DNA of 64,000 nt from Streptomyces sp. cg36. Its GTDB lineage: Bacteria > Actinomycetota > Actinomycetes > Streptomycetales > Streptomycetaceae. The DNA is taken from the NCBI RefSeq assembly GCF_041080675.1, contig NZ_CP163520.1, positions 5,270,001 to 5,334,000 of the forward strand, written 5' to 3'. The notes under the pieces were generated by a model, which saw only the letters and a program-made list of their open reading frames with translations, ran no database searches and was not told where the DNA came from. This document shows positions 13,583-41,556 of the stretch, in pieces. Both the position numbers and the translations under genes were made by a program. Position 1 is the first letter of the stretch. Each line of letters starts with the position of its first letter.

Positions 13583-13780
13583 CTGCGGGCCGGTGGGTGG
13601 CTGGTCGCGCAGTTCCCCGCGCCCCTAGGGGGTACGGCCAGTGCTGCCACTGCGGGGCGCGGGCACGGGTTCGACTTCGGCTGCGGGCCGGTGGGGCTTG
13701 CTCGCGCAGTTCCCCGCGCCCCTGGGTGGTCGGTTGCCTGCGGGCCGGTGGTCGCTCCTCGCGCAGTTCCCCGCTGCCCT
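13583..13780 (+). repeat. Three forward copies of the dispersed GCAGTTCCCCGCGCCCCT element
   Basis: Copies at about 13583-13626, 13681-13723 and 13738-13780 share the layout CTGCGGGCCGGTGG, a variable GCT-G/T-GTC part, then CGCGCAGTTCCCCGC. The first begins 6 bp after the kinase stop codon. They form the left half of the 670-bp gene-free stretch 13578-14247. Confidence 0.85.
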
Positions 13781-13951
13781 TGAAAGCCGGGGGCCGGGCC
13801 CGCCATATCGGCTGCCCGCGCCCCCGGCAGGCACCCGGCAGCCGAAACACCCAGCTCAGCCCAGGCTTCTTGGGGTCGCGGGGCTGTGACATCGTGCGGC
13901 TCCGCCGCGCGGGCGCGAGGAGCGAGCACGGCCCGCAGGCGAACGGGGGTT

Positions 13952-14118
13952 CAGGGGCGCGGGGAACTGCGCGAGGAGCGAGCACGGTCGGCGGACGAAG
14001 GCGGGTTGTCAGGGGCGCGGGGAACTGCGCGAGAAGCGACCAAGGTCCGCGGACGAAGGCGGGTCTCCAGGGGCGCGGGGAACTGCGCGACCAGCCTCCA
14101 CCGGCCCGCAGGCGAAGG
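13952..14118 (-). repeat. Three reverse copies of the same dispersed element
   Basis: Copies at about 13952-13996, 14010-14054 and 14068-14118 read GGGGCGCGGGGAACTGCGCGA on the plus strand, the reverse of the copies at 13583-13780. They lie downstream of the minus-strand MreB-like gene, so each array points away from its own gene toward the other array. Confidence 0.85.
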
Positions 14119-14123
14119 TCCGG

Positions 14124-14203
14124 CAAATGGCCGCAGGCCACCCCCACCGGCCCGCAGGCGAACACCCTGCACAAATGGCCGCAGGCCACCCCCACCGGCC
14201 CGG
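14124..14203. repeat. Two direct repeats of 32 bp, period 48
   Basis: The unit starting CAAATGGCCGCAGGCCACCC occurs at 14124-14155 and 14172-14203. Each copy also contains the short palindrome GGCCGCAGGCC. It lies between the dispersed-element array and the 3' end of the MreB-like gene. Confidence 0.7.
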
Positions 14204-14247
14204 GGGCCCGGGTCACCCCCGCAAAGTCCCGCACCCCCCGCAGCGTC

Positions 14248-15264
14248 CTACTTCGACGCGAGCAGTCGCTGCAAGCCGTCGAAGTCCTCCACGCACTTCC
14301 CCGACCCCAGCACCACGCAGTCCAGCGGCGCCTCCGCCACGAACACCGGGATCCCCGTCGCGGACGCGAGGCGGAGGTCCAGTGCGGGGAGCAGTGCGCC
14401 GCCCCCGGTCAGCACGATCCCCCGTTCCATCACGTCCCCCGCCAGCTCCGGCGGGCACGACTCCAGCGTCCCCCGCACCGCCGCCACGATCTGCTCCACC
14501 GGCTCGTCCAGCGCCGCCCGTACCTCCGGGACGGTGAGCGCCACCGTCTTGGGCAGCCCGCCCACCTTCTCCCGCCCCCGTACCGCGAACGTACGCCCCT
14601 CCAGCTCCTCGTCGCCCGGCACCGGCCACGCCGATCCGATCGCGACCTTCACGTCCTCCGCCGTGCGCTCGCCGATCAGCAGCGAGTGCTCCTTGCGGAC
14701 GTGGTCGGTGATCGCCACGTCCATGCGGTCGCCGCCCACCCGCAGGGACTGCGAGGTGACGATCCCGCCCAGCGAGATCACCGCGACCTCCGTGGTGCCG
14801 CCGCCGATGTCCACCACCATCGACCCGCGCGGCTCCGCCACCGGCAGCCCGGCCCCGATCGCCGCCGCCATGGGCTCCTCGATGAGGTGGACGGCCCGCG
14901 CCCCCGCCCGCTGCGAGGCGTGCACGATGGCCCGGCGCTCCACGGGGGTGACCCCGCTCGGCACGCACACCACCATGCGGGTGCGCGGCCGGCGCCCCGG
15001 CACCGCCTTCTTCACGAAGTGCCGGATCATCTCCTCGGCCGCCTCGTAGTCGCTGATCACCCCGTCCCGCAGCGGACGGATCGCGGTGATCGAGCCCGGT
15101 GTGCGCCCGATGGTCTCCTTGGCCTCCGTGCCGACCGCCAGCGCCGTGCGCCCGTTCTCCTTCATCGCCACCACGGACGGCTCGTTGAGCACGATGCCCT
15201 GCCCGCGGGCGTACAGAAGCGTGTTGGCGGTGCCGAGGTCGATCCCTATGTCCATGATCGCCAA
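14248..15264 (-). CDS. MreB-like actin paralogue (Mbl type)
   Basis: The 338-residue protein is an actin-fold ATPase close to MreB. Phosphate-1 motif [13 protein letters not shown] lies at about 6-18, phosphate-2 [13 protein letters not shown] near 149-161, the [15 protein letters not shown] segment near 127-141, and adenosine motif [12 protein letters not shown] near 280-291. The basic tip and the LGSGK C-terminus are present, so it looks functional. It differs from the mreB at 18116 in the N-terminus (no MSFIGRDM) and in several insertions. The start may be TTG 15264, which has a G-rich site about 7 nt upstream, or ATG 15255, which has none. It lies opposite its neighbours and 2.9 kb upstream of the main mre cluster. 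It may be a developmental or stress variant. Confidence 0.85.
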
Positions 15265-15344
15265 GTTTGCCCCCGTCCCCTGTGGGGGCGGCGGGCCGAA
15301 CGTCCCGAAAGGGGCGGGTCCAAGGTCCTGTCGGCACCCCTCCG

Positions 15345-15350
15345 TAGACT
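15345..15350 (+). promoter_or_regulatory. -10 hexamer of a probable leaderless folC promoter
   Basis: TAGACT lies 6 nt before GTG 15357. No ribosome-binding sequence intervenes. The 92-bp gap also holds the promoter of the divergent MreB-like gene. Confidence 0.5.
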
Positions 15351-15356
15351 GGGGCC

Positions 15357-16868
15357 GTGACCGAGCAGCCCGACCGCAGCAGCAGCCCCGACGACCACTT
15401 CGACGACATCGTCGAGGCCGAGACCCAGCGCGACCCCGACCTCGCCGTGATCGAGGCCGGCAGCCGCACCTTGCGCACGCACGGCGGAGCGCCGCAGGGC
15501 GACCCCGTTCCCGCCCGCCCCGCCGACCCGGAGGTCGACAAGGCGCTGCGCGCGGTCGAGACGGAGCTGGCCACGCGCTGGGGCGAGACCAAGTTGGAGC
15601 CGTCCGTCTCCCGGATCGCCGCGCTGATGGACGTCCTGGGCGAGCCCCAGCGGGCGTACCCCTCGATCCACATCACCGGCACCAACGGCAAGACCTCCAC
15701 GGCCCGGATGGTCGAGGCGCTGCTCGGCGCCTTCGACCTGCGCACCGGGCGGTACACCTCGCCCCACGTCCAGTCGATCACCGAGCGCATCAGCCTGGAC
15801 GGCTCGCCGATCACGGCCGAGCGCTTCATCGAGACGTACGAGGACATCAAGCCGTACGTGGAGATGGTCGACACCCAGCAGGACTTCCGGCTGTCCTTCT
15901 TCGAGGTGCTCACCGGTATGGCGTACGCGGCGTTCGCGGACACCCCCGTGGACGTGGCCGTCGTCGAGGTCGGCATGGGCGGCACCTGGGACGCGACCAA
16001 TGTGATCGACGCGTCGGTGGCCGTCGTCACCCCCATCTCCCTCGACCACACCGACCGGCTCGGCTCCACGCCCGCCGAGATCGCGGTGGAGAAGTCGGGG
16101 ATCGTCAAGCAGGGCGCGACCGTCATCCTGGCCCAGCAGCCCGTCGACGCGGCCCAGGTCATGCTGAAGAAGGCCGTCGAGGCGGACGCGACCGTCGCCC
16201 GCGAGGGCATGGAGTTCGGGATCGTCGCCCGGGAGATCGCGGTCGGCGGCCAGCTGCTGACCCTGCGCGGCCTCGGCGGGGAGTACGAGGACGTCTTCCT
16301 GCCGCTGTACGGGGCGCACCAGGCGCACAACGCGGCCGTGGCGCTCGCCGCCGTCGAGGCGTTCTTCGGCATCGGCTCCGAGCACGCCCGCCCGCTGGAC
16401 GTGGACACCGTCCGCAAGGCGTTCGCCTCCGTCGTCTCGCCCGGCCGTCTGGAGGTCGTGCGCCGCAGCCCCACCGTCGTCCTGGACGCCGCCCACAACC
16501 CGGCGGGCGCCCAGGCCACGGCCGAGGGGCTGACCGAGGCGTTCGGCTTCTCGCGGCTGATCGGCGTGGTCGCGGCCAGCGCCGACAAGGACGTGAAGGG
16601 CCTGCTCGAAGCCTTCGAGCCGGTCTTCGCCGAGGTCGTCGTCACCGCCAACTCCAGCCACCGCTCGATGGACGTCGACGAGCTCGCCGCCGTCGCGGTC
16701 GAGGTCTTCGGCGACGAGCGGGTGGTCGTCGAGCCCCGTCTGGACGACGCCCTGGAGGCGGCGATCACCCTGGCGGAGGAAGAGGACGAGTACGCCGGGG
16801 CGGGAGTCCTCGTCACCGGTTCCGTGATCACGGTCGGCGAGGCCCGGCTGCTCCTGGGAAGGGGCTGA
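15357..16868 (+). CDS. folC: Bifunctional dihydrofolate / folylpolyglutamate synthase
   Basis: The 503-residue Mur-ligase-family enzyme adds glutamate to dihydropteroate and to tetrahydrofolate. The P-loop [11 protein letters not shown] is near residues 108-118. The central lysine-bearing AVEKSGIVK is near 242-250, the LDHTDRLG segment near 229, and the C-terminal [12 protein letters not shown] motif near 376-387 that orients the substrates. About 60 extra acidic N-terminal residues precede the catalytic core, as in other actinomycetes. The next gene starts only 6 bp after its stop, so the two are an operon. Its mRNA is probably leaderless. Confidence 0.95.
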
Positions 16869-16874
16869 CGCCCG

Positions 16875-17234
16875 ATGCGCACGCTCTGCGCTTCCACCCT
16901 CATCGGTGAATTCTTCGTCATAGGGTTCGCCGGTCTGGTCGCCATGAAGGACGACAGCCTCTCCGTGTCCACGGTGTGGACGGTCAGCGGCATCGCCATG
17001 CTGTTCTCGGTGCTCCTGTGCGGCATGCTGACCCGCCCCGGCGGCCTCCAGCTGGGCTGGGCGCTCCAGATCGCCCTGATCGCGAGCGGTTTCGTCGTCC
17101 CGCACATGTTCTTCCTGGGCGCGGTCTTCGCCGGTCTGTGGTGGGCCTCGATCCACTTCGGCCGCCAGGTGGACGTGGCGAAGGCGAAGTTCGCCGCGCA
17201 GGCGGAGGCGGCGGAGCCGGAGCCGCAGGTGTAG
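16875..17234 (+). CDS. DUF4233 integral membrane protein
   Basis: The 119-residue protein has four hydrophobic segments (about 6-24, 34-52, 60-78 and 80-98) and a charged Lys/Ala/Glu tail. It begins MRTLCASTLIGEFFVIGFAG, characteristic of the DUF4233 family that sits directly after folC in actinobacteria. The function is unknown. The tight spacing to folC (6 bp) suggests coexpression. The strong synteny is the main reason for the call. Confidence 0.85.
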   Translation: MRTLCASTLIGEFFVIGFAGLVAMKDDSLSVSTVWTVSGIAMLFSVLLCGMLTRPGGLQLGWALQIALIASGFVVPHMFFLGAVFAGLWWASIHFGRQVDVAKAKFAAQAEAAEPEPQV

Positions 17235-17235
17235 G

Positions 17236-17359
17236 CGTGCGTGGTTCGTCCGCGGGCCGCGACCAGCCGCCCGCGGTCCGCAGCCGGAGCACCTGCCCCG
17301 GAAGGGGTTCCTTCGGCCGCGGACCGTGCTGGGCCGCCCGCGCGGTTCCCCGCGCCCCT
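17236..17359 (+). repeat. Dispersed element: collapsed inverted pair plus one forward copy
   Basis: 17236-17285 joins the 5' end of a forward unit (TTCGTCCGCGGGCCG) directly to the 3' end of a reverse unit (CGACCAGCC...GGTCCGCAGCC), as if an inverted pair had lost its middle. A forward copy follows at about 17313-17359. This fills most of the 218-bp gap between the DUF4233 gene and ndk. Confidence 0.65.
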
Positions 17360-17452
17360 GGCGGCACGGGGCCGGTCCGGGTGCTCGGGCGCTCCGCGCC
17401 CCCTGTAGCCTCGGCCTCACCGCACACGTATGCCTGCAAGGAGCCGCACACC

Positions 17453-17872
17453 ATGACCCAGCGCACTCTCGTCATCCTCAAGCCCGACGCCGTCCGGCGC
17501 GGCCTGATCGGCGAGGTCATCGGCCGCATCGAGCGCAAGGCCGGCTGGACCATCCCGGCGATGGAGCTGCGGACCCTGGACCAGGAGACCCTGGAGCAGC
17601 ACTACGGCGAGCACAAGGGCAAGCCCTTCTACGAGCCGCTGATGGGCTTCATGGCCTCCGGCCCCGTCGTCGTCCTCGTGGTCGAGGGCGAGCGGGTCAT
17701 CGAGGGCGTGCGCCGGCTGGCGGGCCCCACCGACCCGATCGCCGCCACCCCCGGTTCCATCCGCGGCGACTTCGGCACCATCGTCCGCGAGAACCTGATC
17801 CACGCCTCGGACTCCGAGGAGTCGGCCGAACGGGAACTGAAGATCTTCTTCCCGGGCCGCGTCCAAGCCTGA
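17453..17872 (+). CDS. ndk: Nucleoside diphosphate kinase
   Basis: The 139-residue enzyme moves the gamma phosphate between NTPs and NDPs through a phosphohistidine. Visible motifs are the N-terminal TLVILKPDAVRRGLIGEV, the KPFYEPLMGFMASGP loop, and the active-site ENLIHASDSEESAERE with the catalytic His near 117. Length and order match the bacterial family. ATG 17453 has AAGGAG at 17438-17443. Longer frames upstream cross the dispersed repeat and are rejected. A terminator follows before mreB. Confidence 0.97.
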   Translation: MTQRTLVILKPDAVRRGLIGEVIGRIERKAGWTIPAMELRTLDQETLEQHYGEHKGKPFYEPLMGFMASGPVVVLVVEGERVIEGVRRLAGPTDPIAATPGSIRGDFGTIVRENLIHASDSEESAERELKIFFPGRVQA

Positions 17873-17904
17873 CCGGGTGTCAGCCAAATAGCGCTCATGA
17901 CCTG

Positions 17905-20392: not shown

Positions 20393-21073
20393 ATGCGTAT
20401 CAACAGGGTCATCCTCTCCGTCGCGCTGGTCGTCGTCGCGCTCGTCGTCCAGGTCAGCGTGCTCGCCCGGCTCCAGCTGCCGGGCGCCGTCCCGGACCTG
20501 GTGCTGCTCACCGTCCTCGGGCTCGCCCTCGTCTACGGCCACCTCGGCGGCGCCTTCGTCGGCTTCGGCGCGGGCCTGCTCTCCGACCTCGCCCCGCCCG
20601 CCGACCACGCCGCCGGGCGGTACGCCCTGGTGCTCTGCCTGGTCGGCTACGCGGCCGGGCTCGCCAAGCCCGACCACGGCCGGCTGCGCTCGGCGACCGG
20701 CCCCATGGTCGTGGTGGTCTGCGCGGCCATCGGCTCCACCCTGCTCTACGCGGGCGTGGGCGCCCTCGTCGGCGACACCGCCGCCCGCCATGTGGGCCTG
20801 TCCAACCTGCTGTTCACGGCCGCCGTCTACGACCTGCTGCTCGCGCCGTTCACCGTGCCGCTGATCATGGCGATCGCCAGACGCGCCGAGAACGACCCGC
20901 TCGCCGACACGTCGTCGGGCACCGGCGCCCGCAAGGGCGGCGGCATCGCGGCCGGCTGGCTCTCCGGCGGCACCGGGCTGAGCATCGGCAACCAGCGCGG
21001 CGGCCTGCGCGTGAAGGCCGCCCGCAACCGCGCGGCCCGGGCCGGCCGCATCAAGGGCGTCAAGCGACTGTGA
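20393..21073 (+). CDS. mreD: Rod-shape-determining protein MreD
   Basis: This 226-residue polytopic protein has about five membrane helices in residues 1-165, including VILSVALVVVALVVQVSVLA and a LLTVLGLALVYGHLGGAFVG segment typical of MreD. A basic cytoplasmic C-terminal extension of about 60 residues, rich in Gly/Arg/Ala, is longer than in most MreD proteins. It links MreC and the PBP2-RodA pair to the membrane. ATG 20393 follows AGGAGCTG. pbp2 begins 16 bp later, so translation is probably coupled. Confidence 0.92.
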   Translation: MRINRVILSVALVVVALVVQVSVLARLQLPGAVPDLVLLTVLGLALVYGHLGGAFVGFGAGLLSDLAPPADHAAGRYALVLCLVGYAAGLAKPDHGRLRSATGPMVVVVCAAIGSTLLYAGVGALVGDTAARHVGLSNLLFTAAVYDLLLAPFTVPLIMAIARRAENDPLADTSSGTGARKGGGIAAGWLSGGTGLSIGNQRGGLRVKAARNRAARAGRIKGVKRL

Positions 21074-30508: not shown

Positions 30509-33500
30509 ATGCTTGAGAACGAGAAGAACGAACCCGGTGTGACCGGGGACGACAACAACAGCCCCAGCGACACGCTGCCGCCGCGCCGCCGGCGCCGCGC
30601 CGCGTCGCGGCCCGCCGGTCCGCCGGGAGCCGCGGGCGCCGACGCGCCCGAGACCCCGGCCGCCGCCGAGGCCCCGGCCGAGACCGCCGCGCCCGCCGCC
30701 GAGGAGGCCGCTCCGGCCCGTCCGCGCCGCCGCGCCACCCGCAAGGCGACCGCGCCCGCCGGTGCCCCGGCCGCCGTCGAGGAGACCCCGGCCGCCGCCG
30801 AGGCCCCCGTCGAGAGTGCCGCGCCCGCCGCCGAGGAGGCCGCTCCGGCCCGTCCGCGCCGCCGTGCCACCCGCAAGGCCACCGCCGCCGCCGAGGCGCC
30901 CGTGGCCGCCGAGCCCGTCGAGGCCCCGGCCGCCGTCGAGCCGCAGGCCGTCGAGGCCGTCGAGGAGAGTGCCGCTCCGGCGCGCACCCGTCGCCGTGCC
31001 ACCCGTAAGGCCACGGCTCCGGCCGGTGCGCCCAAGGCCGCCGAGGACGCCGAGATCGTCGTGGCCGCCGAGCCCGTCGAGGCCCCGGCCGCCGTCGAGC
31101 CGCAGGCCGTCGAGGCCGTCGAGGAGAGCGCCGCTCCGGCCCGTACCCGCCGTCGCGCCACCCGCAAGGCCACCGCGCCCGCCGGTGCGCCCGCCGTCGA
31201 GGAGACCCCGGCCGCCGGTGCGCCGCCGGCCGTCGCCGCCGAGGACCCGGTCGCCTCCCCGGCCGAGGAGGCCGCCGTCGTGGCCGCCGCCGAGGAGAGT
31301 GCCGCTCCGGCGCGCACCCGTCGCCGTGCCACCCGTAAGGCCACGGCTCCGGCCGGTGCGCCCAAGGCCGCCGAGGACGCCGAGATCGTCGTGGCCGCCG
31401 AGCCCGTCGCCGAGGCGCCGGTCGCCGAGGAGAGCGCCGTCGAGGCCGCCGAGGACGAGGCGCCCCGCGGTCGCACCCGCCGCCGCGCGACCCGCAAGGC
31501 CACCGCGCCGCAGTTCACCACGACCACCACCACCGCCGCCGCCGCCGAGGAGCCCGCGAAGGCCGCGGCGCCCGAGGCACCCCAGGCCGAGGAGAAGCCG
31601 GAGACCGGCCTCCCCCGGGGCGCCAAGGGCCAGGGGGGTGCCCCCACCCGCCGCCGCGCCACCCGCCCGGCCGTCGCCGTCTTCCAGGCGCCGGTCTTCC
31701 ACGAGCCGATGTTCCAGACCCCCGAGACCGCCGCCGCTGCCGCCGCCCAGGCCGCCGCCGAGGTGACGGACGAGACGGACGAGGAGGAGACGGAGCAGAC
31801 CGTCGCCGAGCCGGTCGTCGAGCAGGCCGAGCCGCAGGGCGGCTCCCGCCGTCGCCGCCGCCGTCGCGGCGAGAGCGCCGAGTCCGCGCCCGAGCCGCAG
31901 GCCCCCGCGGCCGAGACGGCCGACGAGGACGCGTCCGCCGAGGAGGAGCCGGAGGGCGCCGAGGCCGAGGAGCACGAGGACGACCGTCCCTCGCGCCGTC
32001 GCCGCCGCGGTGGCCGCCGCCGTCGCCGGGGCGAGTCCGCCGAGCAGGAGGAGACCGACACCGAGGACTCCGCCGAGGCGGAGGCCGAGGCGTACGAGGA
32101 CGAGGACGACGAGTCCGACGACACCCCGTCCGCCGCGGGCACCAGCAGCAGCCGTCGCCGGCGCCGGCGCCGTCGCCGCAGCGGTGACGGCGGTGACCAC
32201 GAGGGCGGTTCGGACGACCCGGAGCGCACCGTCGTCAAGGTCCGCGAGCCGCGCCCGGCCCGCGAGAAGGCCGAGCCGTCCGACGAGGTGCAGTCCATCA
32301 AGGGCTCGACCCGTCTGGAGGCGAAGAAGCAGCGCCGCCGCGAGGGCCGCGAGCAGGGCCGCCGCCGGGTGCCGATCATCACCGAGGCGGAGTTCCTGGC
32401 GCGCCGCGAGGCCGTCGAGCGCGTGATGGTCGTCCGCCAGAGCGGCGAGCGCACCCAGATCGGCGTCCTGGAAGACAACGTGCTGGTCGAGCACTACGTC
32501 AACAAGGAGCAGGCCACCTCGTACGTCGGCAACGTCTACCTGGGCAAGGTCCAGAACGTCCTGCCGTCGATGGAGGCCGCCTTCGTCGACATCGGCAAGG
32601 GCCGCAACGCCGTCCTGTACGCCGGTGAGGTCAACTTCGAGGCGCTCGGCATGGCCAACGGGCCGCGCCGCATCGAGGCCGCCCTCAAGTCCGGCCAGTC
32701 GGTCCTGGTGCAGGTCACCAAGGACCCGATCGGCCACAAGGGCGCCCGTCTGACCAGCCAGGTCTCGCTGCCCGGCCGCTACCTCGTGTACGTGCCCGAG
32801 GGCTCGATGACCGGCATCAGCCGCAAGCTCCCGGACACCGAGCGCGCGCGCCTGAAGACCATCCTCAAGAAGATCGTCCCCGAGGACGCGGGCGTCATCG
32901 TGCGCACCGCCGCCGAGGGCGCCAGCGAGGACGAGCTGCGCCGCGACGTCGAGCGGCTCCAGGCGCAGTGGGAGGAGATCTCCAAGAAGTCCAAGCAGAT
33001 CTCGACCTCCTCGCCGAGCCTGCTGTACGGCGAGCCGGACATGACCGTCCGCGTCGTCCGCGACATCTTCAACGAGGACTTCTCCAAGGTCATCGTCAGC
33101 GGTGACGAGGCGTGGGAGACCATCCACGGCTACGTCTCGCACGTCGCCCCCGACCTGGCGGACCGCCTCCAGCGGTGGACCTCCGAGGTCGACGTCTTCG
33201 CGACGTACCGGATCGACGAGCAGCTCGCCAAGGCGCTCGACCGCAAGGTCTGGCTGCCGTCCGGCGGCTCGCTGGTGATCGACAAGACCGAGGCGATGAT
33301 CGTCGTCGACGTCAACACCGGCAAGTTCACCGGCCAGGGCGGCAACCTGGAGGAGACCGTCACCAGGAACAACCTGGAGGCGGCCGAGGAGATCGTGCGC
33401 CAGCTGCGGCTGCGCGACCTCGGTGGCATCGTCGTCATCGACTTCATCGACATGGTCCTGGAGTCCAACCGGGACCTGGTGCTGCGGCGCCTGCTCGAAT

Positions 33501-34591
33501 GCCTGGGCCGTGACCGTACGAAGCACCAGGTCGCCGAGGTCACCTCGCTGGGCCTGGTCCAGATGACCCGCAAGCGGGTCGGCCAGGGCCTGCTGGAGTC
33601 CTTCTCCGAGACCTGTGTCCACTGCAACGGACGCGGTGTCATCGTCCACATGGAGCAGCCCACCGGCACCGGTGGCGGCGGCAACGGCAAGCGCTCCAAG
33701 AAGCGCGGCCGGGGCGGCGACGGGCACGACCACGACGTGCACGAGCACGAGGCCGTGGAGACCGAGGCCGTCGAGACCGAGGCGGAGGTGGCGGCCGAGG
33801 TCGCCGCGCCCGTCGCGCTCGCCGAGCCGGAGTTCGTGCCGGACGAGGAGCTGTACAGCAGCGCCGCCGAGGCGGAGGCCGCGGCCCGTGGTGGCCGCAG
33901 CCGTCGCCGCGCGACCCGCAAGGCGTCGGCCCCGGCCGGTGCGCCCCGCCGGGCCGCCGAGAGCGAGCCGGCCGTGGCGGAGCCGGTGGTCGAGCCGGAG
34001 CCCAGGGCGGTGACGGTGGCGTCGTTCATCGAGGACGAGGCGCCGCGCGGGCGGGCCCGTCGCCGGGCCACCCGCAAGGCGACCGCGCCCGCCGGTGCGC
34101 CGGCCGCCGCCGAGGCCCCGGCCGAGGTCGTCGTGGCCGAGCCGGTCGCGGTGGCGGAGCCGGTCGTCGCGGCGGAGCCCGTGGTGGCCGAGCCGGTGGC
34201 CGAGCCCGTCGTCGAGGAGGCGCCCGTCGCCGCCCCGCCGCGGGCCCGTCGCCGGGTGACCCGCAAGGCGACCGCGCCCGCGGGGTCGCCGTCGGGCACC
34301 CAGGAGGCTGCGGTCGTCGTGGTGGCGTCCGCGCCGGTGGCCGAGGCCGTCGTGGCCGAGCCGGTCGCGGTTGTCGCGGATGAGGCCGCGGCGGACGTCG
34401 CGGAGCCCGTCGAGGAGGCCGCCCCGGCCAAGAAGGCGGCCCGCAAGACGGCGAAGACGGCCAAGAAGGCCACCACCGCGAAGAAGGCGGTCGCCAAGAA
34501 GACGGTGGCCAAGAAGACCGCGGCGAAGAAGACGACGGCGAAGAAGGTTGCCAAGAAGGCGGCGGCTGAGCCGGTGGCGACGGAGGGCTGA
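30509..34591 (+). CDS. rne: Ribonuclease E/G family, RNase ES type with scaffold arms on both sides
   Basis: The protein has 1360 residues, close to Streptomyces RNase ES. Residues 1-640 form a disordered Ala/Glu/Val/Pro arm with repeated RRRATRKATAPAGAP cassettes and Arg-rich patches (SRRRRRRRR types). The catalytic core follows. An S1-type region starts near 655 (EHYVNKEQATSYVGNVYLGK). The DNase-I-like subdomain has DVNTGKF near 931 and DFIDM near 977, the metal-binding aspartates, and the zinc link CVHCNGRG is near 1035. A second arm follows with more RRRATRKA cassettes, and from about 1307 a histone-H1-like Lys/Ala tail (KKTVAKKTAAKKTTAKK). It processes rRNA and decays mRNA, and the arms bind RNA and PNPase-type partners. 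ATG 30509 is chosen by its GGGAG site. Confidence 0.95.
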   Translation: MLENEKNEPGVTGDDNNSPSDTLPPRRRRRAASRPAGPPGAAGADAPETPAAAEAPAETAAPAAEEAAPARPRRRATRKATAPAGAPAAVEETPAAAEAPVESAAPAAEEAAPARPRRRATRKATAAAEAPVAAEPVEAPAAVEPQAVEAVEESAAPARTRRRATRKATAPAGAPKAAEDAEIVVAAEPVEAPAAVEPQAVEAVEESAAPARTRRRATRKATAPAGAPAVEETPAAGAPPAVAAEDPVASPAEEAAVVAAAEESAAPARTRRRATRKATAPAGAPKAAEDAEIVVAAEPVAEAPVAEESAVEAAEDEAPRGRTRRRATRKATAPQFTTTTTTAAAAEEPAKAAAPEAPQAEEKPETGLPRGAKGQGGAPTRRRATRPAVAVFQAPVFHEPMFQTPETAAAAAAQAAAEVTDETDEEETEQTVAEPVVEQAEPQGGSRRRRRRRGESAESAPEPQAPAAETADEDASAEEEPEGAEAEEHEDDRPSRRRRRGGRRRRRGESAEQEETDTEDSAEAEAEAYEDEDDESDDTPSAAGTSSSRRRRRRRRRSGDGGDHEGGSDDPERTVVKVREPRPAREKAEPSDEVQSIKGSTRLEAKKQRRREGREQGRRRVPIITEAEFLARREAVERVMVVRQSGERTQIGVLEDNVLVEHYVNKEQATSYVGNVYLGKVQNVLPSMEAAFVDIGKGRNAVLYAGEVNFEALGMANGPRRIEAALKSGQSVLVQVTKDPIGHKGARLTSQVSLPGRYLVYVPEGSMTGISRKLPDTERARLKTILKKIVPEDAGVIVRTAAEGASEDELRRDVERLQAQWEEISKKSKQISTSSPSLLYGEPDMTVRVVRDIFNEDFSKVIVSGDEAWETIHGYVSHVAPDLADRLQRWTSEVDVFATYRIDEQLAKALDRKVWLPSGGSLVIDKTEAMIVVDVNTGKFTGQGGNLEETVTRNNLEAAEEIVRQLRLRDLGGIVVIDFIDMVLESNRDLVLRRLLECLGRDRTKHQVAEVTSLGLVQMTRKRVGQGLLESFSETCVHCNGRGVIVHMEQPTGTGGGGNGKRSKKRGRGGDGHDHDVHEHEAVETEAVETEAEVAAEVAAPVALAEPEFVPDEELYSSAAEAEAAARGGRSRRRATRKASAPAGAPRRAAESEPAVAEPVVEPEPRAVTVASFIEDEAPRGRARRRATRKATAPAGAPAAAEAPAEVVVAEPVAVAEPVVAAEPVVAEPVAEPVVEEAPVAAPPRARRRVTRKATAPAGSPSGTQEAAVVVVASAPVAEAVVAEPVAVVADEAAADVAEPVEEAAPAKKAARKTAKTAKKATTAKKAVAKKTVAKKTAAKKTTAKKVAKKAAAEPVATEG
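30961..31409 (+). repeat. Exact 119-bp duplicate within rne
   Basis: Bases 30961-31079 are identical to 31291-31409 (offset 330 bp, 110 codons). A second pair, about 30902-30968 with 31061-31127, is offset by 159 bp. All are in frame and encode the RRRATRKATAPAGAP cassette region, so recombination between them would keep the frame. Confidence 0.9.
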
Positions 34592-34660: not shown

Positions 34661-34765
34661 CTGCGGGCCGTGGTGGGCTGGTCGCGCAGTTCCCCGCGCC
34701 CCTTGTCGGGCCGGGGTTTTGGCTGCGGACCGTGCTGGGTTGCTCGCGCAGTTCCCCGCGCCCCT
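34661..34765 (+). repeat. Two forward copies of the dispersed element after rne
   Basis: Copies at 34661-34702 and 34722-34765 end in CGCGCAGTTCCCCGCGCCCC. They lie directly behind the rne terminator, in the same orientation as rne. With the reverse copy at 34827-34870 they account for most of the 346-bp gene-free stretch 34592-34937. Confidence 0.85.
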
Positions 34766-34826: not shown

Positions 34827-34870
34827 CAGGGGCGCGGGGAACTGCGCGACCAGCCCCCACCGGCCCGCAG
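34827..34870 (-). repeat. Reverse copy of the dispersed element
   Basis: CAGGGGCGCGGGGAACTGCG followed by CGACCAGCCCCCACCGGCCC lies 68 bp from the stop codon of the minus-strand gene at 34938, in that gene's orientation. Confidence 0.8.
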
Positions 34871-34937
34871 GTGAAGGCCGGGCCTCATAGGGGCGCGGGC
34901 GCCCCACCGCAGCCCGCAGGAGAATTCCGTGCGCGCG

Positions 34938-37097
34938 TCAGCGCCTCGTGCGCCACGCCGTCCGCAGCTGGGCGGACAGGAACAGGGCCGTCAGCGTCGG
35001 GATCGTCGCGCGGTACCAGTCCGGCGTCGTCCACGCGTACACCGACAGCGGCACCAGCACGAGCAGCGCCACCACCCGCAGCCGCCACCAGCGACGGCTC
35101 CGCGGGACCGGCAGCGCCGGGGTCCCCAGGTCCGTGGCGAGCGAGTCGCGGATGCCGCGCAACACGCCCCGGCGGGCCAGCAGTTGGGCGCCGGGGGCGG
35201 TCCGCAGCACCTCGTCCTCCTCGCCGAAGCCGGGCGGCAGCGGCGGCAGCCCGAGCGCGGCCACCAGGTCGGACTGGCGGCGGGCGGGCGAGTCCCCGCC
35301 CCGCAGCAGCACCACCAGCGGCCGGGCGTCGCCCACCGAGAACGCCGCCGCCAGCGCCTGCGCGGTCGCCGACGCCTGCACGTGGTCGGTGACCGGCCCC
35401 TGCGGGTCCCACTGGTGGGCGGCGGTCTCCTTGCCCTTCTGGAGCAGCGTGAGCCCGTACCGCGACTCGGTGCGGCGCAGCACCAGCGCGGGCCACTTCT
35501 CGCCGGTGGTGAAGCTGTCGGCGGCGGCGGTCAGCCGGTCGTCCCCGGCCAGCGCCGCCCGCCGCCCGGGCGCGGGGTCGGGGACGAGCTCCACGTAACT
35601 CATGCCGGTGCGCGCGGGCGCGATCCGCAGGGAGACGCCGCACATCAGGGCCGCCTCGGCCACCTCGTGCGGGGGCGCGGCGGCTATCGCGAGCGAGTGC
35701 GGCACTGCGGTGCGCGCCGCGGGGACCCCCGCCGCGCCGGAGGCGGCACCGGGCCCCGGGGCGAACCCCGGAGCCCCGGCGGGTCCGGAGTTGGCGGGGG
35801 ACCCGACGGCCCCTCCGGAGCGGCCGGACCCGGACCGGGACCGGGCGGATCCGGACCCGAAGCGGCCGGACCCTGCCCTGAAGCGGCCGGACCTGGACCC
35901 GGTCCGGCCCGACCCGGACCCGGACCGTGCGGAGTCGGACCCGGAGCGGCCCGACCCGGACCCGCCGGAGCCTGGCCCGGACCCGCCGGAGCCGGAGCCG
36001 GACCCGGACCCGCCCGACCCGGACTCGGACCGGGCGGACCCGGACCCGCCGGACCCGGACCGGGCGGGTGCGGAGAAGAACGGTGTGTGCGAGGCGAGTT
36101 GCATCCGTACTCCCGACCGCAGTTCGAGGAACTCCTCGCGCGGTTCGCCCAGGTACGCCCAGGGCAGCGTCCGCGCGCCCACCCCGATCGCCCGGAACAC
36201 GTCCAGCGCCTCGGCCCACCGCTCGTGCAGGATCAGCATCAGCACCAGGTGGTTGCGGAAGTCCGCGGCGTCCGGGTCGCCCGGCTCGTACCAGGTGGAC
36301 AGCTCCAGGCCGCGCTCCACGGCGGCGTCGATGCGGGAGCGCTTGACGGGGCTCTGGCGGGCCGGGTCGTCGGAGGCCACCACGTACTCCACGGCCGCCA
36401 GCAGCGGCAGCGCGTGCAGTTTGGAGCCGGGCAGGGCGCTCCCGGCGGCCCGCTCGGCGAAGGCGAACATCTCGGCGTGCGAGCCGTACCACTTCTCGGA
36501 GAGGTACTGCAGGGCCGCGGCGTGGCAGCCGTAGTGGTGCGGGGAGCGGGCGGTGGCCTCCGCCCAGTACGCGTCGAACACCTCGCGGGACGCCTGGCTG
36601 CCCCGGGCGTGGGTGAGGGCGATCTGCCACGGCACCGGATCGGTCGGGTTGAGCCGGGCCGCCGCCGACGCCACCGGGACGGCGTCCCCCAGCAGCGCGA
36701 AGAACGCCTGGAACTGCTCGGGCGCCACGTCCTTGGCGCGCGCCGCGCTGCGCACCTCCCACGCCCGGTGGACGCAGAGCTCGGCCTTGACCAGTACCGC
36801 GTCGGGGTCCTCGGGCGCCTGCGCCAGCCAGTCGTCGAGCCAGCCGGGGCTGTGCAGGGCGGCCGTGGCGAGGCGGCCCACGCAGGTGCTGCGCCGCTCC
36901 CACTCGGCGCGCTCCCGGGTCCCGGCGAGCAGGGCCGCGGCGGGACCCCGGTCACCGGCGTGCAGGGCGGCGAGCGCGTCGCGCAGCGGGCCGTCCGGGG
37001 CGTCCAGGGTGACGGCCTCGTCGGGCGGCAGGTCCGCGCCGACGGACGAGCCGTGGCGCAGCATGCGGGGCATGGAGAGCAGCGAACGCAGGTGCAC
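34938..37097 (-). CDS. Unknown 719-aa protein with repeat-like N-terminal helices, Gly/Ser/Arg linker and C-terminal membrane helices
   Basis: I do not recognise the family. Residues about 1-340 are helical and repeat-like (many W/A/L pairs, PDAVLVKAELCVHRAWEVR), reminiscent of TPR-type proteins. Residues about 345-430 are a minisatellite-coded linker of SGSGGSGSARS-type units. A conserved-looking domain follows (about 455-660, with MSYVELVPDPAPGRRAALAG and FTTGEKWPALVLRRTESRYG), then two C-terminal hydrophobic segments. The start is GTG 37097. AATAAT ends 5 nt before it and there is no ribosome-binding site, so it may be leaderless. ATG 37073 is an alternative. It is divergent from rplU. Confidence 0.7.
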   Translation of the reverse strand: MHLRSLLSMPRMLRHGSSVGADLPPDEAVTLDAPDGPLRDALAALHAGDRGPAAALLAGTRERAEWERRSTCVGRLATAALHSPGWLDDWLAQAPEDPDAVLVKAELCVHRAWEVRSAARAKDVAPEQFQAFFALLGDAVPVASAAARLNPTDPVPWQIALTHARGSQASREVFDAYWAEATARSPHHYGCHAAALQYLSEKWYGSHAEMFAFAERAAGSALPGSKLHALPLLAAVEYVVASDDPARQSPVKRSRIDAAVERGLELSTWYEPGDPDAADFRNHLVLMLILHERWAEALDVFRAIGVGARTLPWAYLGEPREEFLELRSGVRMQLASHTPFFSAPARSGSGGSGSARSESGSGGSGSGSGSGGSGPGSGGSGSGRSGSDSARSGSGSGRTGSRSGRFRAGSGRFGSGSARSRSGSGRSGGAVGSPANSGPAGAPGFAPGPGAASGAAGVPAARTAVPHSLAIAAAPPHEVAEAALMCGVSLRIAPARTGMSYVELVPDPAPGRRAALAGDDRLTAAADSFTTGEKWPALVLRRTESRYGLTLLQKGKETAAHQWDPQGPVTDHVQASATAQALAAAFSVGDARPLVVLLRGGDSPARRQSDLVAALGLPPLPPGFGEEDEVLRTAPGAQLLARRGVLRGIRDSLATDLGTPALPVPRSRRWWRLRVVALLVLVPLSVYAWTTPDWYRATIPTLTALFLSAQLRTAWRTRR
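35815..36070. repeat. Minisatellite encoding the Gly/Ser/Arg linker
   Basis: About 250 bp of imperfect GGACCCGGACCG-type hexamer and 12-mer repeats lie within the 719-aa protein gene. On the coding strand they give Ser-Gly and Arg-Ser-Gly units. Length variation is likely between strains. Confidence 0.85.
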
Positions 37098-37190: not shown

Positions 37191-37354
37191 TGACCCTCGG
37201 CGTGTTTCCATGCGCGCCCGCCTCTGAGCACCTCCCTCCCGGCGACCGTCGAGGTCGTGGGGAGAGGCCGCTCGTCCATTCCGGATCATCACGGGTTCGC
37301 CCGTGTGACGCGGCTGGCTTCAGGGGTTCCGTTCCGAGCGAGAGAGAGATCCGC

Positions 37355-37675: not shown

Positions 37676-37689
37676 GGGACTGAGGAGAC

Positions 37690-37944
37690 ATGGCACACAA
37701 GAAGGGCGCATCGTCCACCCGGAACGGTCGCGACTCCAACGCTCAGCGGCTCGGTGTGAAGCGCTTCGGCGGTCAGACCGTCAACGCCGGTGAGATCCTG
37801 GTCCGCCAGCGTGGCACCCACTTCCACCCGGGCGCCGGTGTCGGCCGCGGTGGCGACGACACGCTGTTCGCCCTGCAGGCCGGCGCGGTGCAGTTCGGCA
37901 CCCACCGTGGCCGCAAGGTCGTGAACATCGTTCCGGTCGCCTGA
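37690..37944 (+). CDS. rpmA: 50S ribosomal protein L27
   Basis: The 84-residue protein begins [16 protein letters not shown] with no Firmicutes-type cleavable lead. It contains the signature [22 protein letters not shown]. The N-terminal tail reaches the peptidyl-transferase centre. It lies 14 bp after rplU with TGAGGAG upstream, and ends at a two-part terminator before obg. Confidence 0.98.
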
Positions 37945-37958
37945 CCGGTTCTTACGTG

Positions 37959-38010
37959 AGGCGGACCTCACTTCCCGTACGGACCCCGTACGGGAAGCGG
38001 GTCCGCCTTT
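37959..38010 (+). terminator. Terminator after rpmA
   Basis: AGGCGGACC (37959-37967) pairs with GGTCCGCCT (38000-38008). It encloses a second hairpin, CTTCCCGTACGG with CCGTACGGGAAG. TTTCGCG follows. Confidence 0.85.
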
Positions 38011-38012
38011 CG

Positions 38013-38032
38013 CGTGTTTCTAATGAAACACG
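38013..38032. promoter_or_regulatory. Perfect palindrome between the rpmA terminator and obg
   Basis: CGTGTTTC-TAAT-GAAACACG is an 8-bp perfect inverted repeat with an AT spacer, 65 bp before obg. It lies past the terminator, in the obg promoter area, so an operator is more likely than a second terminator. No regulator is assigned. Confidence 0.45.
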
Positions 38033-38096
38033 GCATTACCCAGACATTCCGTAATCCCCCGGCCTCCGGTCGGGGGGATCCCCAGGAGGCAAGCCC

Positions 38097-39536
38097 ATGA
38101 CCACCTTCGTGGACCGCGTCGAGCTGCACGTCGCCGCGGGTAACGGAGGCCACGGCTGCGCCTCCGTGCACCGGGAGAAGTTCAAGCCGCTCGGCGGCCC
38201 CGACGGCGGCAACGGCGGCCGGGGCGGCGACGTCATCCTGGTCGTCGACCAGTCGGTGACCACGCTCCTCGACTACCACCACAGCCCGCACCGCAAGGCC
38301 ACCAACGGTGCGCCCGGCGCCGGTGACAACCGCTCCGGCAAGGACGGCCAGGACCTGGTCCTGCCCGTCCCGGACGGCACCGTCGTCCTCGACAAGGACG
38401 GCAACGTGCTCGCCGACCTCGTCGGCCAGGGCACCACCTTCGTCGCCGGCCAGGGCGGTCGCGGCGGCCTCGGCAACGCGGCGCTGGCCTCCGCCCGCCG
38501 CAAGGCCCCCGGCTTCGCGCTGCTCGGCGAGCCCGGCGAGGCCCGTGACGTGGTCATGGAGCTGAAGACCGTCGCCGACGTGGCCCTGGTGGGCTACCCC
38601 AGCGCCGGCAAGTCCTCGCTGATCTCGGTGCTCTCCGCCGCCAAGCCGAAGATCGCGGACTACCCGTTCACCACCCTGGTCCCCAACCTCGGCGTGGTCA
38701 CCGCGGGCTCCACCGTCTACACCATCGCCGACGTCCCCGGCCTCATCCCCGGCGCCAGCCAGGGCAAGGGCCTGGGCCTGGAGTTCCTGCGCCACGTCGA
38801 GCGCTGCTCGGTGCTGGTGCACGTGCTGGACACCGCGACGCTGGAGTCCGAGCGCGACCCGGTCTCCGACCTCGACGTCATCGAGGACGAGCTGAAGCAG
38901 TACGGCGGCCTGGAGGACCGGCCCCGCGTCGTCGTCCTCAACAAGATCGACATCCCGGACGGCCAGGACCTCGCCGACATGATCCGCGGCGACCTGGAGG
39001 AGCGCGGCTACCGCGTCTTCGAGGTCTCCGCCGTCGCCCGCACCGGGCTGAAGGAGCTCTCCTTCGCGCTCGCCGGGATCGTCGCCGAGGCGCGCGCCGC
39101 CAAGCCCGTCGAGGAGGCCACCCGGATCGTGATCCGCCCCAAGGCGGTCGACGACGCGGGCTTCACCGTCACCTACGACGAGGCCGGCGAGGTCTACCGG
39201 GTGCGCGGCGAGAAGCCGGAGCGCTGGATCCGCCAGACCGACTTCAACAACGACGAGGCCGTCGGCTACCTCGCCGACCGCCTCAACCGCCTCGGCGTCG
39301 AGGACCAGCTGATGAAGGCGGGCGCCCGCGCGGGCGACGCCGTCGCCATCGGCCCCGAGGAGAACGCGGTCGTCTTCGACTGGGAGCCCACGATGATGGC
39401 GGGCGCGGAGATGCTCGGCCGCCGCGGCGAGGACCACCGTCTCGAAGCCCCGCGCCCGGCCGCCCAGCGCCGCCGCGACCGCGAGGCGGAGCGGGACGAG
39501 GCCCAGCAGGAGTTCGACGAGTTCAAGCCGTTCTGA
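38097..39536 (+). CDS. obg: GTPase Obg/CgtA
   Basis: The 479-residue protein has the glycine-rich Obg fold (about 1-158, with [13 protein letters not shown] and [10 protein letters not shown]). The G domain has the P-loop GYPSAGKSS near 166-174, a switch [21 protein letters not shown] as G3, and NKIDIPD near 281. A C-terminal OCT domain (about 340-425) and an acidic/basic tail follow. Obg acts in 50S assembly and ppGpp responses. In S. coelicolor it was linked to the onset of aerial mycelium. ATG 38097 has AGGAGG at 38084-38089. It forms the classic L21-L27-Obg group. Confidence 0.97.
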
Positions 39537-39548
39537 CGGGCTGAGCCT

Positions 39549-39649
39549 TCGTCCGCGGGCCGTCCGCGGCTCGTCGCGCGGTTCCCCGCGCCCCTGAATG
39601 CCCAGGGGCGCGGGGAACCGCGCGCTCGGCCCCCACCGGCCCGCAGCCG
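39549..39649. repeat. Inverted pair of dispersed elements after obg, 21-bp perfect stem
   Basis: A forward copy (39549-39595) faces a reverse copy (39603-39649). Bases 39576-39596 pair perfectly with 39603-39623 around a 6-nt loop. It probably terminates obg transcription. The reverse copy is the only one that does not lie behind a gene on its own strand. Confidence 0.85.
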
Positions 39650-39756
39650 ATTCCGCACCCGGGAAAACCCGGCATCGGGGGCCGCGGGCCGCAGCGGCAT
39701 ACTGGACACGTTCAGCAAACGTACGATGTCCACCGAACGTCAAGGAGTAGCCCCCC

Positions 39757-41490
39757 GTGCGTAATCCCGAGGCACCGAGACTGCTGGGGGTCTACCGGCG
39801 GGCCGTGCCCGAGAGCGTCCGCAAGGCGATCGTGGCGCAGGTCGACGCCGACATGCGCCGCCGCGTCAAGATGCGCATCGCCGGCGGCGCCGCCGTCGCC
39901 GAGAAGATGCGCGCCGCCCGCGTCACCAAGCGCTACCAGACCCTCGCCTCCGGCGCCGACCGCGCGGTCGTGCACGTCGGCAAGGACCCCAAGGTCGCCC
40001 TGGTCCAGCCCGGAGTCACCCCGCTGACGGCCCGCCGCGCCAACCTCGACGCCGTGCTGCGGGCCCTGCACGCGGCCGGTCTCGACCACTTCTGCGTCCG
40101 GGGCCGCTCGGAGACCGCCGCCGCCGTCGCCGTCCGCGAGGACGACCGCACGGCCGTGCTGAAGGTCCTCGAAGCGCTCTGCGGCGACCAGCCCGGCTAC
40201 GTCACCCACGTCAAGGGCAACAACCCGGTCCCCGAGACCTCCCTGCCCGGCTACGAGGACGCCACCTGGCGCCGGTTCAAGACCGCCGGGACCGTCCGCG
40301 TCACCTGGTACCGCACGGACGACACCCACCGCCTCGTCCTCGGCAACCGCTACGGCTGCGACATCGAGTTCTGGCACGAGGAGGAGGGCCGGCTGGTGCC
40401 GCCGCGGGTCGGCAAGCTCACCGAGGACCTCGCCCTCCAGGGCCCCACCACCCGGATCTCCGAGGCGTACTTCACCCACCTCGCCCCGCGCGAGGCCCCC
40501 GACGCCGCCCAGGTGCCCACCCGCGCCGAGTTCGCCATCCACCCCACCGACGAGATCACCTTCCCGATCGACGTCGTCTACACCTGGGTGAACGGCGCGG
40601 ACCCGGCCTGGCTGCGCCGCCGCGCCCGGTTCGCGGGCGAGACCTACCACGCCGAGGCCGCCAACGCCGCGCGCTATCTGAGCCGCGACGAGCTGCGCTA
40701 CTCGCTGCGCTCGCTGCACATGTACGCGCCGTGGGTGCGCAACATCTACCTCGTCACCGACGACCAGACCCCGGAGTGGCTGGACACCACGCAGCCCGGC
40801 ATCAAGGTCGTCAGCCACAAGGAGATCTTCCGCGACCCGGGTCTGCTGCCCACCTTCAACTCGCACGCCATCGAGAGCCAGCTCCACCACATCGAGGGCC
40901 TTGCCGAGCACTTCCTGTACTTCAACGACGACGTGATGCTCGGCAACGAGGTCACCCCGCAGGACTTCTTCCTCTCCAGCGGCCTCACCAAGTTCTTCCC
41001 GTCGCCCGCCCTCGTACCGCTGGGCGCGCGCACCCCCGAGGACCCGCCGGTGGCCGCCGCGGGCAAGAACAACCGGCGGCTGATCGAGGAGCGGTACGGG
41101 GCGGTGGTCGTGCAGAAGATGAAGCACATGCCGCACCCGCTGCGGCGCAGCCTGCTCACCGAGATCGAGACGGAGTTCGAGCCGGAGTACCGCTACACCG
41201 AGGCGAGCCGGTTCCGCTCGGAGGACGACATCTCCATCTCGTCGTCGCTGCACCACTACTACGCGTACCACACGCAGCGCGCGGTGCCCTCCGAACTCCC
41301 GTACACCTACCTCGACTTGACGCATCCCTGGACCGAGACGCGGCTCGGGCGCCTGCTCGCCAACCGGGACAAGACGGTGTTCTGCGTCAACGACACGGTC
41401 TCCACCGAGCAGGACGTGCACGAGCAGAAGGATCTGATCACGCCGTTCCTGGACGCGTACTTCCCGGTGCGGAGCCCGTACGAGAAGTGA
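39757..41490 (+). CDS. Stealth-family sugar-phosphate transferase
   Basis: The 577-residue protein has the conserved Stealth blocks: IDVVYTWVNGADPAW near 271-285 (CR1), RDELRYSLRSLHMYAPWVR and IYLVTDDQTPEWLDTT, then FNSHAIESQLHHIEGLAEHF with LYFNDDV (CR2). MPHPLRRSLLTEIETEFE and a late Tyr-rich block follow (CR3-CR4). Stealth proteins move hexose-1-phosphate onto glycans to make phosphodiester-linked capsules or wall polymers. The 270-residue N-terminal part is less conserved. GTG 39757 has AAGGAG at 39742-39747. No signal peptide is visible, so it acts in the cytosol. It is convergent with the related fusion protein at 41628. Confidence 0.9.
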   Translation: MRNPEAPRLLGVYRRAVPESVRKAIVAQVDADMRRRVKMRIAGGAAVAEKMRAARVTKRYQTLASGADRAVVHVGKDPKVALVQPGVTPLTARRANLDAVLRALHAAGLDHFCVRGRSETAAAVAVREDDRTAVLKVLEALCGDQPGYVTHVKGNNPVPETSLPGYEDATWRRFKTAGTVRVTWYRTDDTHRLVLGNRYGCDIEFWHEEEGRLVPPRVGKLTEDLALQGPTTRISEAYFTHLAPREAPDAAQVPTRAEFAIHPTDEITFPIDVVYTWVNGADPAWLRRRARFAGETYHAEAANAARYLSRDELRYSLRSLHMYAPWVRNIYLVTDDQTPEWLDTTQPGIKVVSHKEIFRDPGLLPTFNSHAIESQLHHIEGLAEHFLYFNDDVMLGNEVTPQDFFLSSGLTKFFPSPALVPLGARTPEDPPVAAAGKNNRRLIEERYGAVVVQKMKHMPHPLRRSLLTEIETEFEPEYRYTEASRFRSEDDISISSSLHHYYAYHTQRAVPSELPYTYLDLTHPWTETRLGRLLANRDKTVFCVNDTVSTEQDVHEQKDLITPFLDAYFPVRSPYEK

Positions 41491-41511
41491 CGCCCACCGG
41501 GGCAGGGGGAT

Positions 41512-41556
41512 CTGCCCTCGCGTGGCCGCTTCGCGCGCGGTTCCCCGCACCCCCGG
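41512..41556 (+). repeat. Forward copy of the dispersed element after the Stealth gene
   Basis: A diverged copy (CGCGCGCGGTTCCCCGCACC core) begins about 22 bp after the stop, in the gene's own orientation, just before the terminator. Confidence 0.7.

Follow-up and report, generated by a model that had tools for sequence, protein, structure and literature searches.

The closest described counterparts of the repeat considered here are the REP, BIME and REPIN sequences of enterobacteria and pseudomonads, which the available text of three sources presents as short, intergenic elements with hundreds of copies that favor gene ends and tandem and convergent gaps, and that form inverted doublets and arrays (PMC3733652, PMC3116915, PMC2817692). 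In the portion available of one of these surveys, Escherichia coli REPs are described as targets of gyrase, and a superfamily of CGTC-tagged REPs is reported to "seem lacking a dedicated transposase" (PMC3733652). In Streptomyces, the accessible part of another study places GC-rich hairpins at transcript ends, as U-poor (HS-U-lack) hairpin 3' ends and I-shaped terminators (PMC8269248); these constitute a structural class, whereas the element described here is a shared 20-bp sequence. The word Streptomyces is absent from the main text of two REP surveys (PMC12306157, PMC3733652), and a description of the element was not found among the matches listed in searches of the open-access literature.

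The window, the whole 64-kb stretch of Streptomyces sp. cg36 DNA that was analyzed, contains 13 matches to CGCGCAGTTCCCCGCGCCCCT at up to 3 mismatches (0.03 expected, from 100 shuffles); all 13 copies located in a preliminary description of this DNA were recovered, and its placement of the copies downstream of stop codons holds in the window, by gene calls and families, as well as over 2.86 Mb. The first array follows a histidine-kinase gene, with three forward units at 13583..13626 (from CTGCGGGCC to the core end; core 13606-13626), 13681..13723 (core 13703-13723) and 13738..13780 (core 13760-13780, with 2 mismatches), a center at 13781..13952 that is not matched by the center-module profile discussed below, and three reverse units with approximate outer ends at 13953..13997 (core 13953-13973), 14011..14055 (core 14011-14031) and 14069..14114 (core 14069-14089), the last of them behind an MreB/Mbl-like gene (14248-15255, minus strand). 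A single forward unit (17317..17359, core start 17339) occupies the gap between a DUF4233 gene (16875-17234, plus strand) and an NDK gene (17453-17872, plus strand) and points in the direction of the upstream DUF4233 gene. The RNase E/G gene (30509-34591, plus strand) is followed by forward units at 34661..34703 (core start 34683) and 34722..34765 (core start 34745; outer end approximate), and by a reverse unit at 34828..34872 (core start 34828; outer end approximate) behind a minus-strand gene (34938-37097). After obg (38097-39536, plus strand), a forward unit at 39553..39595 (core start 39575) and a reverse unit at 39604..39648 (core start 39604; outer end approximate) carry cores that together form a 20-bp perfect inverted repeat. 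Finally, a weak forward unit (41512..41554, core start 41534; outer end approximate), whose core has 3 mismatches to the 21-mer of the preliminary description, lies between two convergent Stealth genes.

The repeating unit consists of a variable spacer of ~40 bp followed by a nearly invariant 20-bp core, CGCGCNGTTCCCCGCGCCCC, and the motif CYGCGGRCC lies inside the spacer, about 22 bp 5' of the core. The ~45-bp element of the preliminary description is a real repeat, but the unit length is better put at about 60 bp; within tandem arrays the units are spaced 56-62 bp apart in 206 of 249 cases. Spacers from different gaps resemble each other (0.57, vs. 0.39 for random intergenic stretches). A CRISPR array was considered and excluded because of spacers and orientation: the spacing varies, the spacers are interrelated, and arrays of both orientations exist. 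A sequence search of the literature retrieved papers in which 13 bases of the core occur, presumably from the type I-E CRISPR repeat of E. coli. When sites were found through a specific spacer motif (142 sites), the core was perfect in 111, had one mismatch in 13 and two in 4, three or four in none, and five or more in 14; with a looser motif (665 sites), cores with 0/1/2/3/4 mismatches numbered 250/29/8/1/0. In genome G219, unrelated 5' modules precede 8 of 22 cores, as judged by eye. By these sequence comparisons the core looks constrained and may be recognized by a factor; some of the surplus of perfect cores might come from spread in the recent past.

The whole genome of Streptomyces sp. 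cg36 contains 502 copies. Positions were evaluated over a tiled region of 2.86 Mb around dnaA, which makes up 32% of the genome and is not a random sample of it, at a threshold of at most one mismatch (403 copies, control 3); this set replaced one at up to three mismatches (448 copies, control 75), which was set aside because many of its members were chance matches. Genes were called by a codon-usage script instead of taken from annotation, with the same trained table applied to short stretches of G195, G219 and other loci. Within the tiles, no other intergenic 16-mer family comes near the element in abundance: its top 16-mer occurs 259 times, vs. 25 for that of the next family, presumably the parS site. 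Like REPs and BIMEs in the broad sense, the element is 20-60 bp long, high-copy and intergenic; just 5 of the 403 copies fall in called genes, four of them in a single one, and these five were dropped from the gap counts, which also leave gaps under 60 bp outside the totals. It shares with them the location after genes, in tandem and convergent gaps and rarely in divergent ones: 51 of 299 convergent, 46 of 904 tandem and 4 of 399 divergent gaps are occupied (convergent vs. tandem, p = 9e-10; tandem vs. divergent, p = 1.4e-4), and in 40 of the 46 tandem gaps the copies are closer to the upstream stop. Sorted by array-free length, gaps below 150 bp are occupied in 35/180 convergent, 14/412 tandem and 0/103 divergent cases, and gaps of 150-300 bp in 14/64, 14/282 and 2/153 cases; above 300 bp the convergent enrichment is absent (2/55, 18/210 and 2/143). 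The preference for gene 3' ends is real; the same location pattern would be expected of a purely neutral element that persists only at a distance from promoters.

Adjacent copies in the tiled region are paired as ++ 144 times, -- 102 times, +- 50 times and -+ once. In mixed arrays the forward copies come first and the reverse copies second, in many cases on either side of a distinct center of ~47 bp, and this order is found even between tandem or divergent genes. A profile of the center module gave 30 matches, none of them in a gene and 27 of them between a forward and a reverse unit, in both orientations; since 14 of the 30 were used to build it, the independent figure is 13 of 16. By eye, the interval 13781..13952 in the window looks like a divergent relative of this module. 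The inverted units and mosaic arrays are again shared with REPs and BIMEs in the broad sense, and the forward-center-reverse layout, without regular alternation, sets the element apart from REP/BIME arrays. A single orientation is present in 50 of the 101 occupied gaps, and in 28 of the 79 gaps with several copies. Two of the one-orientation gaps are a single array split by an IS.

In the strict sense, in which each REP unit is a palindrome or stem-loop, the element is not a classical REP, because its single unit is non-palindromic: the folds of two single units are no more stable than those of shuffled sequences (z -0.60 and +0.34), whereas the inverted pair after obg (39553..39648) folds as RNA at -82.1 kcal/mol (z -7.99), so that a hairpin between cores is possible for part of the arrays only. 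An alifold consensus of 101 units contained only a 4-bp GCGC stem that hardly varies and says nothing either way. A stem within the unit, pairing CYGCG with CGCRG, was also considered; the T/C vs. A/G association was weakly seen (Fisher p = 0.014, each distinct combination counted once per gap and those with C in the core left out), and the stem was not accepted, as 70 copies have C as a third alternative at the core base, which is incompatible with the pairing. The arrays could be bidirectional hairpin terminators or 3'-end protectors, inverted core pairs forming a 20-bp hairpin in either transcript that stops RNA polymerase or blocks 3'-5' nucleases, as proposed for REPs. Besides the obg pair and the placement of arrays at 3' ends, this explanation draws on G195, where the core runs on into hairpins of the GCGCCCC-loop-GGGGCGC type near stop codons (by eye, with one consensus folded), and on published work, the available text of which describes hairpins of maximal length and stability at Streptomyces 3' ends, together with few U's (PMC12207403), and abundant short RNAs of S. 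coelicolor and E. coli that map to stem-loops, many of them in 3' UTRs (PMC4681348). Yet a gap with one orientation offers no core-core hairpin, which applies to half of the occupied gaps, and the two single units behave like shuffled sequence; as an account of the element, the hairpin appears somewhat unlikely.

The distribution across the genus is uneven. Copy number ranged from 0 to 873 among 150 genus genomes sampled, and since 50 of the 150 have no copy, the genus can do without whatever function the element may have; G109 carries over 1,100 copies (604+559). At the obg locus, the eight genomes with the highest scores carry a single copy or none genome-wide, yet G274 has 307, and at the obg gap itself an array was gained or lost between related species. 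The search for a mobilizing enzyme centered on Y1 transposases, the cognate RAYTs of GTAG REPs and REPINs. The genome of Streptomyces sp. cg36 has no match to Y1_Tnp (PF01797), which rules out RAYT/IS200-type mobilization as a present requirement there; PF01797 is likewise absent from G059, G109, G032, G103 and G037, each with hundreds of copies, and it is present in 46 of the 150 genomes, G128 (757 copies) among them. The GTAG end tag is also lacking as a constant feature, with GTAG in 19 of 403 unit contexts and without fixed position. With the CGTC-tagged REPs the element has in common the apparent absence of a dedicated transposase, here judged by the Y1 family, and the occurrence of CGTC, in 245 of 403 unit contexts; it differs in that CGTC lies within the variable spacer, most often at -25/-24 but not fixed, with no CGTC-bounded palindrome shown. 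A REPtron-like gene flanked by arrays left no signal, as one or two genes lie between occupied gaps in 10 cases vs. 8.6 expected. One of these 10 cases is a transposase gene inside an array.

Such a distribution is what a selfish or neutral repeat might produce, spread by a trans-acting enzyme, persisting only off promoters and genes and serving no host function; the swings in copy number, the gain or loss at obg and the rare occupation of divergent gaps are in keeping with it. Against it stand the better preservation of cores than of spacers, the lack of a graded series of decayed cores beside intact spacer motifs, the same core amid unrelated flanks in G219, and the genome of Streptomyces sp. 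cg36 without a Y1 transposase, and we regard it as unlikely.

The preliminary description had the orientation of each copy locked to the gene whose stop codon it follows. As a description of the window this is correct; the lock fails over the tiled 2.86 Mb, where orientation proved random with respect to upstream genes, the outcome that the preliminary description had named as refuting it. Of the tandem-gap arrays with a single direction, 12 read with the upstream gene and 11 against it, and copies in tandem gaps number 101 in the same vs. 93 in the opposite direction. The apparent lock arose because three convergent gaps account for 10 of the 13 window copies, and a forward-then-reverse array in such a gap automatically agrees with both genes; the informative copies are those with cores at 17339 (+), 39575 (+) and 39604 (-). 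Single copies lean toward the direction of the upstream gene (7 same vs. 3 opposite in tandem gaps of the tiles, 6 vs. 3 in G219, 3 vs. 1 on plasmids), in numbers too small to decide. In G195, another species, all six close doublets among the matches listed point outward, their copies facing the gene they follow; the G195 and G219 stretches were themselves chosen among the matches listed. Orientation by replichore was rejected, since both strands are present across 2.9-4.3 Mb (G000) and 0.4-3.0 Mb (G219). Array direction follows the layout of the array itself and not the neighboring genes. A strand-specific mRNA 3'-end signal with its orientation set by the gene, as the preliminary description proposed, agrees with the window and with the lean of single copies, but is contradicted by the tiled arrays, by a distance to the stop that is no greater for opposite arrays (median 55 bp) than for same-direction ones (82.5 bp) and by the outward doublets of G195, and is most improbable.

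The reading we prefer, and to which we give an even chance of being correct, is that of a REP/BIME-like mosaic repeat of Streptomyces whose core is bound by a host factor and whose arrays are strand-indifferent boundaries of transcription units. The core would be what is recognized, a DNA-binding host factor being the likeliest candidate, since spacers have drifted beside cores that remain intact and a core-core hairpin is impossible in half of the occupied gaps. The arrays would then mark places where transcription units end or collide, and might, by analogy with REPs and BIMEs in E. coli, limit the spread of supercoils or read-through; extra RNA hairpins would form where inverted pairs are transcribed, and units would probably multiply locally through tandem duplication. 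A more specific version, in which the 20-bp core is the site of a new Streptomyces DNA-binding factor, arrays in either orientation insulate transcription units, and amplification by a non-RAYT route occurred independently in several lineages, is speculative and unlikely.

The interest of the element lies in a copy number that varies among congeneric species from zero to hundreds, and in neighbors that include rne and obg. If the core is a recognized site, Streptomyces would possess a large set of transcription-unit boundary elements; if the repeat is selfish, the genus would hold an amplification route for short repeats without a known enzyme.

The 13 copies of the preliminary description were recovered at their places: its 21-base end has 13 matches in the window at up to three mismatches, against 0.03 expected, and 11 of the 13 cores (a near-invariant 20-bp word) are perfect when any base is allowed at core position 6; the imperfect ones lie at 41534 (one mismatch) and 13760 (two mismatches), and two extra three-mismatch places, at 20842 and 47898, are at chance level. 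Across the whole genome (9.02 Mb, the window sitting on its 8.6-Mb contig), CGCGCRGTTCCCCGCGCCCC has 267 forward and 235 reverse matches at up to one mismatch; the reversed control of this pattern gave no match at the same threshold. Assignment of the genome to Streptomyces agrees with its Obg, which reaches 94% identity to Obg of named species of the genus. Gene context was analyzed in a tiled part of 2.864 Mb surrounding dnaA (the window and 140 further stretches; 2,406 genes called by codon usage), in which 403 cores match CGCGCNGTTCCCCGCGCCCC at up to one mismatch, against 3 for the control. These tiles (2.87–5.73 Mb of contig G000:C1) make up 32% of the assembly and contain 383 of the 502 copies. 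The element seems to be sparse on the chromosome arms, since the earliest perfect copy on this contig, among the matches listed, is at 1.59 Mb.

The proposed preference for gene 3′ ends holds in the tiled part. Among gaps of at least 60 bp, arrays occupy 51 of 299 between convergent genes, 46 of 904 between tandem genes and 4 of 399 between divergent genes; in 40 of the 46 tandem gaps the array is closer to the upstream stop than to the downstream start (median 64 vs. 171 bp). The order convergent > tandem > divergent appears at array-free gap lengths below 150 bp (35/180, 14/412, and 0/103), is kept at 150–300 bp (14/64, 14/282, and 2/153), and is lost above 300 bp (2/55, 18/210, and 2/143). 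Because promoter avoidance by itself would put copies of a neutral repeat at 3′ ends, a selfish or neutral dispersed repeat, without host function and persisting only off promoters and genes, stands as a rival reading, which we regard as unlikely.

Orientation, said in the preliminary description to be locked to the preceding gene, is independent of gene direction in the tiled part: tandem gaps with one direction comprise 12 with the same and 11 with the opposite direction as the upstream gene (one of each belonging to the same array, which an IS4/5-type insertion has cut in two), 23 more hold mixed orientations, and single copies in tandem gaps are 7 same and 3 opposite. Scoring every copy in tandem gaps against the upstream gene, the check suggested with the original claim, gave 101 same vs. 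93 opposite. The lock was apparent in the window because 10 of its 13 copies sit in three convergent gaps. Another genome, G219, was sampled at 22 copies on 20 stretches: 11 are convergent and 2 divergent, and of those in tandem gaps 6 agree with the upstream gene and 3 oppose it. In genome G195, all six close doublets among the 33 of 61 copies listed point outward; four lie between convergent genes, so that each copy there faces the gene whose stop precedes it. The core also matches 11 plasmid records, all from Streptomyces; six were examined (one unannotated, the gene table incomplete), and in the five annotated records the match falls between annotated genes, tandem in the same direction in H1, H4, and H5, tandem in the opposite direction in H8, and convergent in H9.

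The reading preferred here, a REP/BIME-like repeat with a putatively recognized core, draws on the organization of the arrays. Each unit consists of a ~40-bp variable spacer, carrying CYGCGGRCC ~22 bp 5′ of the core, then the core and usually T; in the tiles, same-strand neighbors are spaced 56–62 bp in 206 of 249 cases, and an occupied gap has between 1 and 12 copies. Adjacent pairs in the tiles are oriented ++ (144), −− (102), +− (50), and −+ (1); mixed arrays therefore run forward then reverse, whatever the gene directions, and two were found between divergent genes. Of 54 forward/reverse turns (cores with up to two mismatches), 17 are spaced 67–69, mostly with a ~47-bp asymmetric centre; a 10-base loop or a 27-base GC hairpin occurs at other turns. 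A profile built from 14 centres and searched across the tiles found 30 places, in both orientations and none within genes, of which 27 lie between a + and a − unit and 3 beside a − unit; without the 14 training sequences, the centre is so placed between + and − units in 13 of 16. In genome G274, an array of one forward and three reverse units, whose centre looks alike by eye, lies at the 3′ end of the kinase orthologue (DNA identity 87%); the second of two loci fetched from G274, around NDK, has no copy.

At G000:C1:4226495-4228853 (L050), an IS4/5-family transposase gene (DDE_Tnp_1) stands between three forward and four reverse units; short inverted ends of the insertion fall, by eye, exactly at the core/centre junction, and the array therefore served as an IS target, as REPs in other organisms are reported to do (PMC1525189).

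At 142 sites of a specific spacer motif, the adjacent core is perfect in 111, has one mismatch in 13, two in 4, and at least five in 14, with none at three or four; for a looser motif (665 intergenic sites) the counts at zero to four mismatches are 250, 29, 8, 1, and 0, followed by a chance-like hump. Spacer likeness is 0.57 between different gaps, 0.66 between adjacent units of one array, and 0.39 between random intergenic stretches. In 8 of the 22 copies sampled from G219 (L279–L298) the module 5′ of the core is, judged by eye, an unrelated one; some of these modules are GC hairpins, e.g., GGGGGCTGCGCCCCC. From these core counts, spacer scores and unrelated modules we infer that it is the core that functions or replicates. 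Folding of two single units is no stronger than that of shuffled sequence (z −0.60 and +0.34), the inverted pair after obg has a fold z of −7.99, and a core–core hairpin is ruled out as the general function because just one orientation is present in 50 of the 101 occupied gaps.

The element is patchy across genomes. Counts at up to one mismatch run from 0 to 873 in a genus sample of 150 genomes that includes the own one, and 100 of these carry one match or more, lone one-mismatch matches possibly being chance. Of 119 genomes drawn from the whole order, with the own family represented by Streptomyces alone, 15 belong to other families, and one of these 15 has a single one-mismatch match. The phage records searched gave no match to the core. 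When genomes were compared at the obg locus (241 scored, 151 not), the eight best-scoring others had one copy (G015, G318, and G269) or none (G094, G289, G041, G264, and G030); G310 has 91 copies, and G274 has 307. G274 shares, at 96% DNA identity, the first of two convergent Stealth-family genes in the window (39757-41490 and 41628-44450), one with a fused glycosyltransferase domain. A further window gene, of 719 aa (34938-37097, minus strand), has good coding signal and no Pfam match above the cut-off. The gap after obg holds recognizable copies at 2 of 29 Streptomyces loci, L186 (two copies) and L188 (one, with two mismatches). In L186 this gap (~11440-11951) contains a larger composite stretch, repeated twice, which includes a further sequence that is common in Streptomyces (GTTTGAGGACGAG..., GGGTCTGGGGCGGAGCCCCAG) and has the core at its end. 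The dominant intergenic repeat may differ from species to species, since the tiled part of the own genome lacks GTCCGGCGTTTGAGGACGAG and has GTCTGGGGCGGAGCCCCAGG once.

In copy number, position, and inverted and mosaic organization, the element would work like REP/BIME repeats. It is not a strict REP, because its unit is no palindrome and has no fixed GTAG/CGTC tag, and the genome has no RAYT; neither the own genome nor five of the richest genomes have a member of the Y1 transposase family, which is present in others, e.g., G128 with 757 copies. The nearest parallel among the papers searched is the CGTC-REP class, reported to be without a dedicated transposase (PMC3733652). The sequence, geometry, position and patchiness of the element are established, as is its independence from gene direction in the tiled part; the core would be under selection and bound by a putative factor, and the arrays may act as a boundary.
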